Source: Gammaproteobacteria bacterium | GTDB lineage: Bacteria > Pseudomonadota > Gammaproteobacteria > JACCXJ01 | Direction: 5' to 3' | NCBI GenBank assembly: GCA_013697045.1 | Contig: JACCXJ010000173.1 | Location: forward strand, 1-42,984 | Length of the DNA: 42,984 bases | Part shown: positions 33,232-41,660 of the stretch, piece after piece | Numbering within the stretch: position 1 is the stretch's first letter | How the letters are laid out: every line of letters starts with the position of its first letter | Position numbers and translations under genes: made by a program | The notes under the pieces: generated by a model | What the model saw: the letters and a program-made list of their open reading frames with translations, nothing else | What the model was told of the DNA's origin: nothing | Database searches by the model: none

Positions 33232-34029
33232 TCACCTGGCACGGATGTACATGACCTTTTGGCTCGAGCCAGGCCGCCCTCGCTCCTCTGAGACGAAAAT
33301 ATCGTTTCGTGATTTCACTAGGTCGCTGAGTTTCTTGAAACCGTATAGGCAGGAATCGAAGTCGGGGTGTAGCTTTGTTAGATAGCTTCCGAAGGTGCCG
33401 AGGTGCGCCCACCCTGTGTCGTCACATGCTTTTTCGAGTGCTTGAAGGATAAACTCCTTCGGGAACTCCTTCTGAGGTTCTTGTGCCCCCGTTGGTGCAG
33501 TTGGTTCCTTCAGCGGCGGCGACGTGCATTTCGCCGGCGCCGGGGCTTCGGATTGTGGCTGTGAAACAGGTTTTAGTAGTTCGGTAAAGAGAAACTTATG
33601 GCAGGCGTTCCGAAAGGCTTCAGGTGTTTTTTGCTCGCCGCAACCAAGAACGGTCAACCCCTCCTCACGGATGCGAAGCGCAAGGCCTGTAAAATCGCTA
33701 TCGCTCGAACCAAGACAGAAGCCATCGAAGCGCTTTGCGTATAAGAGGTCCATCGCGTCTATGATTAGCGTGCTGTCCGTCGCGTTCTTGTCGGTTGTAT
33801 AGGCGAACTGTTGAACGGGCTTTATTGCATGCTTGTTTAGGACCTGCTTCCACTGTGAACTGGCAGAGGACGTAAAGTCACCATATATCCGCTTTACGGT
33901 GGCTTCGCCAATTTCCGCAAGGAGTCCTTCGATTACGGCTGCCTGACCGTTATCTGCGTCAATGAGAACCGCCAAACGAAGCGTCGGCTCTTCCGCTTCT
34001 ACCTTCTCAACTAGCCTCGGGCTTACCAT
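33232..34029 (-). CDS. NYN-domain nuclease-like protein with LOTUS/OST-HTH domain (integron cassette)
   Basis: 265 residues. The NYN (PIN-like) domain covers about residues 15-150: LAVLIDADNGQAAVIEGLL, DSTLIIDAMDLLY and FCLGSSDSDFTGLALRIREE give the Asp residues for Mg2+. A Pro/Ala-rich linker is followed by a C-terminal LOTUS/OST-HTH-like domain (GWAHLGTFGSYLTKLHPDFD) that in relatives binds RNA. It is probably a ribonuclease. It follows an attC core by 17 nt and is the last cassette of the array. Confidence 0.85.
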   Translation of the reverse strand: MVSPRLVEKVEAEEPTLRLAVLIDADNGQAAVIEGLLAEIGEATVKRIYGDFTSSASSQWKQVLNKHAIKPVQQFAYTTDKNATDSTLIIDAMDLLYAKRFDGFCLGSSDSDFTGLALRIREEGLTVLGCGEQKTPEAFRNACHKFLFTELLKPVSQPQSEAPAPAKCTSPPLKEPTAPTGAQEPQKEFPKEFILQALEKACDDTGWAHLGTFGSYLTKLHPDFDSCLYGFKKLSDLVKSRNDIFVSEERGRPGSSQKVMYIRAR

Positions 34030-34045
34030 CCGTGCGTTTTCCTGT

Positions 34046-34096
34046 TTCTAACGTCGAAAATAACTGGCTGGCGCGGCGCGCCAGTCCGGGTTGAAT
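34046..34096 (-). other. attC site between NYN cassette and gene-less cassette
   Basis: On the minus strand it starts ATTCAAC (perfect RYYYAAC; the + strand shows GTTGAAT at 34090-34096) and ends GTTAGAA (near-consensus R'). CTGGCGCG and CGCGCCAG make a strong inner stem. The length of 51 bp is within the attC range. Confidence 0.6.
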
Positions 34097-34276
34097 GAAA
34101 AGGTAGGCATTTAAGTCGCCCCTGGCCCTTTAATTCCGCTGCCTTGTTCACGCTCCTCGTAGTCTCCTTACCCTCCGGGCGCTCCGCCGCCGGCGCAACA
34201 CTCGATACGGGTGGGTGGTTGGCCCTTACCCGACGGGGACTTGCACCCCGCAAGATGCGCCAAGTTTCGCTTGGCA
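34097..34276 (-). other. Gene-less integron cassette (candidate non-coding)
   Basis: About 180 bp between two attC sites with no credible gene of its own; the open frame that crosses it runs through the attC sequences. On the minus strand it contains GCAAGTCCCCGTCGGG-type sequence and inverted blocks (TTGGCGC/GCGCCAA-like and GGGTGCAAG). It may encode a small RNA or a promoter. Confidence 0.4.
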
Positions 34277-34330
34277 CAATAACGCCCCGCTTCACCGGCG
34301 CTATGCGCCGAGCGCAAGCGGTGGTTAGAT
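34277..34330 (-). other. attC site downstream of apeA
   Basis: On the minus strand ATCTAAC (perfect R'') overlaps the stop codon of the HEPN gene, and GTTATTG is a degenerate R'. ACCGCTT/AAGCGG and GGCGC/GCGCC form the arms around an ATA loop. Length 54 bp. Confidence 0.6.
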
Positions 34331-35719
34331 TTCCCCTTTAAGCTTCTGCGCGACACGGTAGTTCCCGCCTGCAACTTGGTCGAGCTGGTCGGTGGTGAAA
34401 CCGAACCTTCTCAAGAACAGCAGCGTGAACATCGCTTCGAGCTTCATTGACACCTCCGAGAGCGCCTCGCCGGACAAGGCGGCCTGCTTGCTGGACTTGT
34501 CGTAGTGTGTCAAATAATTGCGGGTCGTTACCACCTCGTGTATCAGTGCACCGACGCGTGAGCTATCACCAAAGTAGTGGCTGATCGGGTCGATCAATGC
34601 TCTTAGCCGCTGACGAAGCGAGAGTTCGTTCGCGTAGGTCAGGCGAGTCTTGAGCCACTCGGTATGGCTCTGTGGGCACATAGATAGCACGGTGCGTTTC
34701 ACGTCTTGAAACTCAGAGTCCGGCATGACAGTCTTGTCGCTTGTCCTGCGGTGGAAGGTTTCGAGTCCCTGGACAAGGAAGAGAAATCTCGTTTCGACAT
34801 ACGCGTGTCTTGCGGTCGTCGATGCGAAGTACAGATTGATTGCGGGCTCCAACACCTCATAGTCAGCAAGCCAAGCTGAGATAAGGTCGCCGAGGTTTGC
34901 GGCGACGGCGGCATACGGAAACAGCAAGCGGTGCGAATCGACCGCTGGGGCTTTCTCGGAGTGCGGCAGGCTTGGGAAGTAAACCTGGAGCCCCACCGGT
35001 CGCGTGTTCTCGCCGATCGTCTCCGAGATGGTGGGCGACGATACACCTACGCCCGTTAATGCAACGGCTTCATCTATCGCGAGACAAAGGAAGGTGTTTA
35101 CTCGGTGAACGACCCGCAGCAGATCGTGGAAGGCTGTGGGCTTTGCAGCCTCAATCTCAAGGAAAGCTTCTTGAGCAACCCGGGCTTCCGTGATGCTGCC
35201 GTAGCCGAAGGGGATGGTGGAGCGGAATTTGATGGACAGATCAAGCGCGCCGCCCAGCTTGTAGGCCTGAGCAGGCGGTGGACGGAAAGTGATAGCGGCT
35301 TGCTTCAACTCATGGGCATCCCATTCATGCGAGACCGAGATACCCGTTAGGCCAAGCCACTGATTGAGCCCTTCGACTGAGAAAATGACCCGTGCGAACT
35401 CCAGTGGGTCTGTCTCGTGCAGATGCGCACCAAGGAAGAGGTACGCAGCGGTCGCACTCGCCTTTGGAATTCCCGGGAAGCGAAGTTGTGTAGAATAGGT
35501 GAAACAGTCGAAGAGCGTAGCCGACTTGCCGTTCTCCGTGACGCCGTGAATTATCGGGGCAGGCCTAGGCTCAAACTCGGGTAGCTCTCGAAAAGTTCCT
35601 AGCACGTCGAGGGCGACCTTTCCCGAGTCAGATACCTTCAGTGTTCCGGGTATCTTGTGTTGCAAGTTGTCGGGCAGCCAGAAGTACCCTTGCAGACCGA
35701 TAGACTCTTTTGGGCGCAT
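34325..35719 (-). CDS. apeA: ApeA-family HEPN protein (integron cassette)
   Basis: 464 residues. The N-terminal domain (GLQGYFWLPDNLQHKIPGTL) matches the ApeA N-terminal domain; the C-terminal HEPN domain has TTRNYLTHYD, an intact RNxxxH ribonuclease motif (residues about 415-420). ApeA is a single-gene anti-phage system thought to cut RNA after infection. It begins 10 nt after a perfect attC core and its stop is embedded in the next attC, so it is a textbook one-gene cassette. No frameshift or missing residue seen. The name is given by domain similarity; activity is inferred. Confidence 0.8.
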   Translation of the reverse strand: MRPKESIGLQGYFWLPDNLQHKIPGTLKVSDSGKVALDVLGTFRELPEFEPRPAPIIHGVTENGKSATLFDCFTYSTQLRFPGIPKASATAAYLFLGAHLHETDPLEFARVIFSVEGLNQWLGLTGISVSHEWDAHELKQAAITFRPPPAQAYKLGGALDLSIKFRSTIPFGYGSITEARVAQEAFLEIEAAKPTAFHDLLRVVHRVNTFLCLAIDEAVALTGVGVSSPTISETIGENTRPVGLQVYFPSLPHSEKAPAVDSHRLLFPYAAVAANLGDLISAWLADYEVLEPAINLYFASTTARHAYVETRFLFLVQGLETFHRRTSDKTVMPDSEFQDVKRTVLSMCPQSHTEWLKTRLTYANELSLRQRLRALIDPISHYFGDSSRVGALIHEVVTTRNYLTHYDKSSKQAALSGEALSEVSMKLEAMFTLLFLRRFGFTTDQLDQVAGGNYRVAQKLKGEI

Positions 35720-40795: not shown

Positions 40796-40825
40796 CCTAC
40801 GATTGTATGGCGGTCCGGAAGAAGA

Positions 40826-40832
40826 AGCTAAC
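40826..40832 (-). other. Recombination core (attC R' or attI-like) before the first cassette
   Basis: The minus strand reads CAACACGGCGTTAGCT 31 nt before brnT, a typical attC/attI 3' end (GTTAGCT; consensus GTTRRRY with one mismatch). No clear opposite half is found upstream, so whether it is the attI core or a partial attC cannot be told. Confidence 0.4.
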
Positions 40833-40836
40833 GCCG

Positions 40837-41184
40837 TGTTGAGCGGTGCGGGGCATAGACAGGACAGGTGTTGTCCTAGGGGCCCCAACATGAAATCGAA
40901 GGCCGATCCGTCGTCTTGCTAGGCGGCGGCGCCCTTACCGGCAAAGCGTAGCATACGTCGCCTCAATCACTTAGCAACGCCTGGGCCCTGATCTTGGCGC
41001 GAGACAGGCGGCGGGACGGTCGGGGCCTGAGGGAGATAGCGTCGACACCGTGTTATACAATGACGGGCCGTCGGTGGGTCCGGCAATGCCCTGACGGTGA
41101 AGGAGCTGTGCAAGCGGGCGGGAGTCCGACCGCCAGGAAACACGGCATAGAGAGACATCAGGATCCGCTCCCGGTGCGGGGGAG
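40837..41184. other. Putative attI/leader region between first cassette and integrase remnant
   Basis: About 350 bp without a gene. On the plus strand TTATACAAT (about 41054) could be a -10 for the integrase remnant. By integron architecture this is where attI and the cassette promoter should lie, but I cannot identify either precisely. Confidence 0.35.
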
Positions 41185-41660
41185 CCCAGGCTGCTCGATC
41201 GTGTCCGCGACGTCATCGGCGGCTGCGTTGCAGCGTTCAGACAGAGCGGGCTCCGTGGATGGGATCCGGGGCTTCATGCTGTTCCGTCGGGGAGTGGCAT
41301 CCCGAGGTGACGGGGCGGTGGAAAGGGGGGCGTTTCTGAAGCGCTCGCGGTCAAGAGCAACGTCGCGTCGTCCATACGGAACCACGCGCCGAACGCCATC
41401 GTGTTCTACCGGCAGATATTGAGGAAGGGGTTCGGCTGGCTGGAGGGTATAGCGCGTGTGAGGAAGCCGGCCAGGCGACCGATCGTGTTCACGCGCGACG
41501 ACGAGCGAGCGGTCCTGGCGCGCTTGGACGGGGTCCGAGGGGGGATGGCGAGCCGCTTGTACGGCTCCGGGTTGCCGCTCATGGAGGATGCCAGCGGCGC
41601 GTCAGGGACGTCGATTCGGACAGGACCCCCTCCAGCGATCCCGGTTTCGACTACAAGCTC
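41185..41660 (+). pseudogene. intI: Integron-type tyrosine recombinase (IntI-like), decayed
   Basis: Fragments in several frames follow the order of an integron integrase: PRLLDRVRDVI (41185 on), VDGIRGFMLF (about 41250-41290), GAFLK, RNHAPNAIVFYRQIL, GWLEGIARVRKPARRPIVF, TRDDERAVLARLDGVRG, MASRLYGSGLPLMED, VRDVDS. The catalytic Arg expected in YGSGLRLME is Pro here (codon 41575-41577). Box II is not readable. Many frame breaks make it non-functional. It faces away from the minus-strand cassettes, the standard intI/cassette geometry. Confidence 0.65.

Follow-up and report, generated by a model that had tools for sequence, protein, structure and literature searches.

Evidence for a decayed chromosomal integron with open cassette genes, and for group II introns at attC sites, in a gammaproteobacterial genome holding many intI relics

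Introduction

The integron integrase, IntI, captures gene cassettes at the attI site and stacks them into an array, and the usual picture is that a genome has a single platform of this kind and that a dead integrase is an isolated accident. Surveys have found about one third of intI genes to be pseudogenes, with more than one intI in about 20% of the carriers (PMC2426708) or, in a later survey, 22% (PMC9024848); Klebsiella pneumoniae genomes with integrons usually carry one, and two named strains carry four complete integrons each (PMC9024848). Here, we describe the region at 33.2-41.6 kb of a 42,984-nucleotide contig of a gammaproteobacterium (JACCXJ010000173.1, assembly GCA_013697045.1; the whole contig is referred to below as the window), which we identify with high confidence as a decayed chromosomal integron, with a dead integrase and cassette genes that are still open. 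Like sedentary chromosomal integrons, this locus combines an intI gene divergent from attI with a one-strand attC array of mixed cassettes, but unlike in those integrons, the genome carries about 14 intI relics that form paralogue groups at the DNA level, with no intact copy found.

Group II introns associated with attC are also known. IIC-attC introns insert in the bottom strand of attC at R'' (TTGT/T), opposite to the cassette direction, and the group IIB1 intron UHB.I2 is found immediately behind an attC, oriented like the cassettes and with the 5' boundary UUGCG (PMC7923331). The intron family described below shares with the IIC-attC introns the targeting of attC, but inserts at R' on the cassette strand in 12 of 12 model-supported junctions and falls outside the IIC-attC class. 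Like UHB.I2, its members lie directly after attC in cassette orientation and have unusual 5' ends (UUGUG, UCGCG, UUGCG and others); UHB.I2, to which they are likened by position, orientation and 5' end, is one metagenomic case with unconserved exons, whereas the present family spans multiple genomes, has a fixed GTT(A/G) junction and, within the open-licence literature searched, generalises this single published IIB case. HEPN proteins in integron cassettes (3jrt) were noted earlier (PMC3710099) and listed as a HEPN family separate from ApeA; one cassette protein of the window resembles both these and the ApeA/PDC-S58 HEPN proteins, combining ApeA_NTD1 with a HEPN domain that carries an Rx4H motif.

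Results

The cassette array, attI and the integrase remnant

The window, designated C319, is one of the 417 contigs of a draft genome (4.57 Mb, 90% complete, contamination estimate 1.6%). A first-pass annotation, made from the sequence alone, had assembled five attC-like sites, a run of same-strand genes and an IntI-like pseudogene at the right end into one integron. The features that bear on this proposal are the following, with bit scores of attC sites taken from the model R1 introduced below.

34046-34108, minus strand: attC site 1 (20.3 bits)
34124-34279, minus strand: group II intron 5' fragment (domain I), cassette orientation (RF02005, 27 bits, E 3.9e-6; match to the intron-end model R2 at 34182-34283)
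34277-34330, minus strand: attC site 2 (19.2 bits), R' core split after GTTA by the intron relic
35730-35817, minus strand: attC site 3, long and similar to Vibrio cholerae repeats (box scanner score 21.5)
36509-36571, minus strand: attC site 4 (27.5 bits, E 1.2e-4)
40257-40322, minus strand: attC site 5 (21.9 bits)
40826-40832, minus strand: GTTAGCT core before the first surviving cassette, seen in the sequence and probably an R' half whose attC is otherwise lost (weak R1 match 40826-40844, 8.9 bits)
40883-40889, minus strand: attI core GTTGGGG, at which the DNA homology of the paralogues stops
41182-41592, plus strand: intI pseudogene remnant with a stop, recognisable only over IntI residues ~4-141 (TIGR02249, E 2.4e-14)

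To avoid circularity, the 14 sites used to train the attC covariance model (R1) all came from contigs other than the window, and the 43-kb window was then searched in full with the filters disabled. Four array sites are among its five best matches, all on the minus strand within 6.3 kb; the remaining one (2851-2922, plus strand, 23.6 bits) lies far from the array. A box-and-stem scanner that is independent of R1, with 60 dinucleotide shuffles of 8 kb as the control, ranked attC site 3 first, and none of the 60 shuffles reached a score of 21. In this site, R'' ATCTAAC is fully complementary to R' GTTAGAT, and all 7 positions of L'' and L' are paired, with one extra base. Four of the five proposed sites are therefore recovered in one orientation by a held-out model, where the first-pass annotation had named at least three such matches as support; the fifth (35730-35817) is recovered by the scanner and not by R1, and the sites at 34046 and 40257 run about 12 nt longer than first given.

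Divergent from the adjoining array, the 83-residue translation of 41344-41592 on the plus strand matches TIGR02249 (E 2.4e-14) and PRK15417 (E 1.9e-7) only, and is 45% identical to an intact IntI over 82 aa. The profile match at 41.2-41.6 kb falls where an integrase had been predicted (plus strand, near 41.2-41.7 kb), and no Xer or phage integrase family matched the remnant in the family-model searches, so that a better fit to a phage or insertion sequence (IS) integrase, which would have spoken against the proposal, did not emerge. The DNA at 40885-41521 is 67-77% identical to the attI-intI regions of four further contigs (C47, C139, C152 and C198) and, over attI only, to C344. Because homology among the intI copies breaks at 40883-40889, as expected where attI ends and cassettes start, the attI core is placed there; on the cassette side, homology ends in several copies at a GTTRRRY core, which reads GTTGGGG in the window, GTTAGGC on C344 and GTTGGGC on C152. 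The array thus adjoins both an attI site and a divergent integron-type integrase gene, the latter a pseudogene. Every cassette open reading frame (ORF), from 33232 to 40891, is on the minus strand, in agreement with the single strand reported earlier for all genes at 33.2-40.8 kb, and the GC content of the array (0.556, vs 0.639 for window positions 1-33000) is lower, in line with cassette capture. Together, the attC model matches, the IntI remnant and the attI core bear out the assembly of these pieces into one integron.

The further proposal that the dead integrase froze the array calls for care, given a near-complete intI with one frameshift on C156 and an intI on C47 that is cut by the contig end. 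The array might still be moved by an integrase encoded elsewhere, on C156 or on an unassembled copy: the C156 gene is full length but for that frameshift, the C47 gene is open up to the contig end, and several attC sites elsewhere remain in good condition (38-47 bits, many of them R1 training sites). We consider such mobility unlikely, as the R1-matched attC sites of the window score 19-27 bits compared with 30-43 for most of the listed non-training sites, the adjoining attI has degraded and an intron splits the core of one attC.

Group II introns at the R' core of attC

The 180-bp segment between attC sites 1 and 2, apparently a short cassette, is identified by RF02005 as a group II intron 5' end, the 27 bits lying below the gathering score of 49 and the E-value of 3.9e-6 referring to a 301-nt search. 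Eight further intron 5' fragments lie elsewhere in the genome. The fragments share one start point, except for that on C393, which has lost its first bases, and in most copies attC...GTTA leads into (T/C)G(T/C)GCC or a closely similar sequence. With a model of the intron 5' end (R2), which includes four to five exon bases with a slight GTTA bias and no upstream attC, the family was found in 22 of 274 genomes of the class, the present one included, and, at a stricter threshold, in 4 of 399 genomes of a phylum sample. Intact relatives score 93-115 bits with RF02005; domain V is found in two of them (G002 and G075), and a reverse transcriptase (RT)/maturase ORF, absent from the window fragment, in G246, G002 and G075 (RVT_1, E 1e-30 to 1e-35). 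The catalytic RNA domains and RT/maturase that characterise group II introns are thus documented through relatives, the window retaining domain I alone.

At all 12 junctions where both models match (four in this genome, namely in the window and on C152, C390 and C80, and eight in other genomes, the C152 attC alone having been an R1 training site), the R1 and R2 matches lie on one strand and share precisely the 7 nt of the R' core; the insertion point is after GTT(A/G) of this core, in cassette orientation. The attC scores at junctions exceed those at 2250 other GTT positions (p 3e-9), although individually about half of the 28 junctions stay below the 95% level of that scanner. A regular-expression search for further attC-intron junctions found none, adjacency having been taken from the model matches.

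An identical junction would also result if the repeat behind attC were a cassette spread by IntI, given that cassettes start at the same R' core, and not an intron homing separately to each attC. Spread as a cassette is nevertheless improbable: the members of full length prove to be group II introns that encode RT and maturase, those in G002 and G075 end in intron domain V, the 5' ends vary (GUGCG, GCGCG, GAGCG, UCGCG, UUGUG) behind many differing attC sites in unrelated families, and the copies on C308 and C331 have no recognisable attC. The intron family shows attC to be a repeated retroelement target on the cassette-coding strand. An intron on this strand could be spliced from cassette transcripts, and its insertion splits the recombination core, which raises the directly testable question of whether introns lock cassettes in place.

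In G246, two intron copies identical over 2009 bases lie behind different attC-like sites, which suggests recent movement. Domain V 3' ends of at least three types occur at seven loci without their 5' parts, and no link emerged between these ends and the 5' relics next to attC.

Relics of intI across the genome

Genome-wide IntI searches, in which true Xer-type genes were told apart, revealed about 14 intI relics that DNA identity sorts into three paralogue groups plus single copies.

Paralogue group 1: C319 (the window), C47, C139 (two relics), C152, C198
Paralogue group 2: C391, C241, C259, C49, C158
Paralogue group 3: C284, C403
Single relic: C156

The cassette side of intI carries attC on C156, C391, C403, C241, C259, C152, C49, C139 and C319. 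An IntI N-terminus query gave 16 matches in this genome, which include one non-IntI recombinase (C176) and a few pieces of single loci, vs 0-4 in each of 55 relatives. Candidates on C176, C141, C259 (at 19.9k) and C344 (at 32.3k) were rejected as Xer or other recombinases. No intact intI was found in the genome, the copies on C156 and C47 being the frameshifted and contig-edge genes described above.

With about 14 intI relics that fall into paralogue groups, the genome points to a repeated origin of integron platforms, either through copying or through renewed acquisition, and to the death of nearly all of them, so that the dead platforms of this one genome may be read as a fossil record of gain and loss within one cell line. 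More tentatively, and as a scenario that we put at somewhat under even chances, attI-intI platforms would have multiplied in this lineage to at least a dozen arrays, every integrase being lost and an R'-homing, cassette-direction intron family feeding on the sites.

The abundance of relics could instead reflect several species in one bin, given the 417 contigs, the presence of some relics on small contigs and the differing composition of C156 and C101. Such an artefact is very improbable, since the relics on long contigs (C319, 43 kb; C259, 48 kb; C158, 30 kb; C241, 24 kb; C403, 23.5 kb; C152, 22 kb) have tetranucleotide correlations of 0.95-0.99 to the window outside the array, the paralogue groups and intron relics cross long contigs, and the contamination estimate is low.

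The window end (42858-42984) is identical to the first 127 bases of C139, on which positions 1-1567 hold two intI relics facing away from that of the window, followed by an attC at 3093-3152. The window and C139 may form a back-to-back integron pair, the join being known from the contig overlap alone.

Points weighed against the integron

Several observations weigh against reading the region as a decayed integron. R1 gives attC site 3 only 3.9 bits, four genes without an intervening attC occupy 36.6-40.3 kb, and no attC was found beyond the NYN gene at the left end of the array. The IntI-specific patch region is gone from the window remnant and kept in the paralogues on C156, C391, C284 and C158, so that the identity of the remnant rests on its N-terminal half and on these paralogues. 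Finally, in a fragmented and incomplete draft, small contigs such as C156 (GC 0.557, tetranucleotide r 0.79) could be mis-binned. One alternative, a cluster of attC sites lacking integrases (CALIN) or a chance cluster of unrelated palindromes between genes beside a decayed phage or IS tyrosine recombinase, can draw on the site missed by R1, on a remnant of about 140 of 320 residues and on a genuine non-IntI recombinase fragment at the other end of the window (2449-2628), but is largely refuted and highly improbable in view of the four held-out matches on one strand within 6.3 kb, the match of the remnant to integron-integrase models only and an attI region that is common to other intI copies and breaks at the core site.

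Cassette cargo

From attI, the cargo of the decayed integron consists of BrnT with its partner, two lipoprotein-like ORFs, a transposase, a 475-aa protein, DUF1780, ApeA-HEPN and NYN-LOTUS.

40523-40795, minus strand: BrnT toxin, 90 aa (PF04365, 2.3e-27)
40270-40572, minus strand: small gene immediately downstream of BrnT within its cassette, likely to encode an antitoxin (no Pfam match)
39339-39911, minus strand: 190-aa lipoprotein-like ORF (no family match)
38860-39342, minus strand: 160-aa lipoprotein-like ORF (weak Ig-like match below the cut-off)
38190-38846, minus strand: repetitive extragenic palindrome (REP)-associated tyrosine transposase (RAYT) at 38321-38758, between 45-bp inverted REP-like repeats (NF047646, 1.5e-20)
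36657-38084, minus strand: 475-aa protein with an N-terminal hydrophobic stretch (no Pfam, NCBIfam or PADLOC family)
35825-36439, minus strand: DUF1780 putative endonuclease (PF08682, 2.9e-26)
34325-35719, minus strand: ApeA_NTD1 and HEPN protein (PF18862, 1.4e-45; PF18739, 2.1e-32; PADLOC PDC-S58, 2.1e-87)
33232-34029, minus strand: NYN nuclease with an OST-HTH/LOTUS domain (PF01936, 1.6e-31; PF12872, 3.3e-18)

The Pfam matches confirm the ApeA-type HEPN, NYN-LOTUS, DUF1780 and BrnT families named in the first-pass annotation, to which the present analysis adds a likely antitoxin beside BrnT, the RAYT/REP element, the relic of a group II intron and numerous sister copies of intI. The ApeA-type protein combines ApeA_NTD1 with a HEPN domain in which the Rx4-6H motif takes the Rx4H form, RNYLTH. 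All cargo reading frames are open, and these open frames, with intact catalytic motifs, make it plausible that the cassette genes are kept by selection. Judging from their families, the genes are probably expressed passengers with RNA- or DNA-targeting roles in stress or defence. The 45-bp inverted repeats of the RAYT/REP element recur on other contigs (C377).

Proposed history of the locus

A working chromosomal platform, with intI, attI and a cassette array, once occupied the locus, and before the integrase decayed, IntI would have captured cassettes at 40883-40889, building up a minus-strand array towards the left. The integrase has since decayed to a fragment, and the attC sites have degraded. 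The position, orientation and homology of the intron relic point to an insertion event, in which a group II intron would have reverse-spliced into the attC top strand at GTTA of the R' core, and the intron would later have lost all except its 5' end. Recombination would presumably have been lost at the core so split. The RAYT/REP element, probably a later insertion, would have broken into another cassette.

Other sequences in the window and the genome

The segment at 2449-2628 on the minus strand, tried as a second intI of the window, was rejected as the end of a XerD-like recombinase, adjoining an IS91-like zinc-binding transposase frame; the lone attC-like site at 2851-2922 is nearby. An RF02939 match on attC site 2 (17.6 bits, below gathering) was likewise rejected as a hairpin match. 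Directly after the intI remnant, positions 41954-42144 hold seven copies of a 21-bp tandem repeat, and similar repeats follow the truncated intI genes on C403 and C241 and also occur on C350. On C307, positions 233-4409 carry six attC-like sites among ordinary metabolic genes (RidA-like, sulfatase and AMP-ligase, judged by eye from translations).

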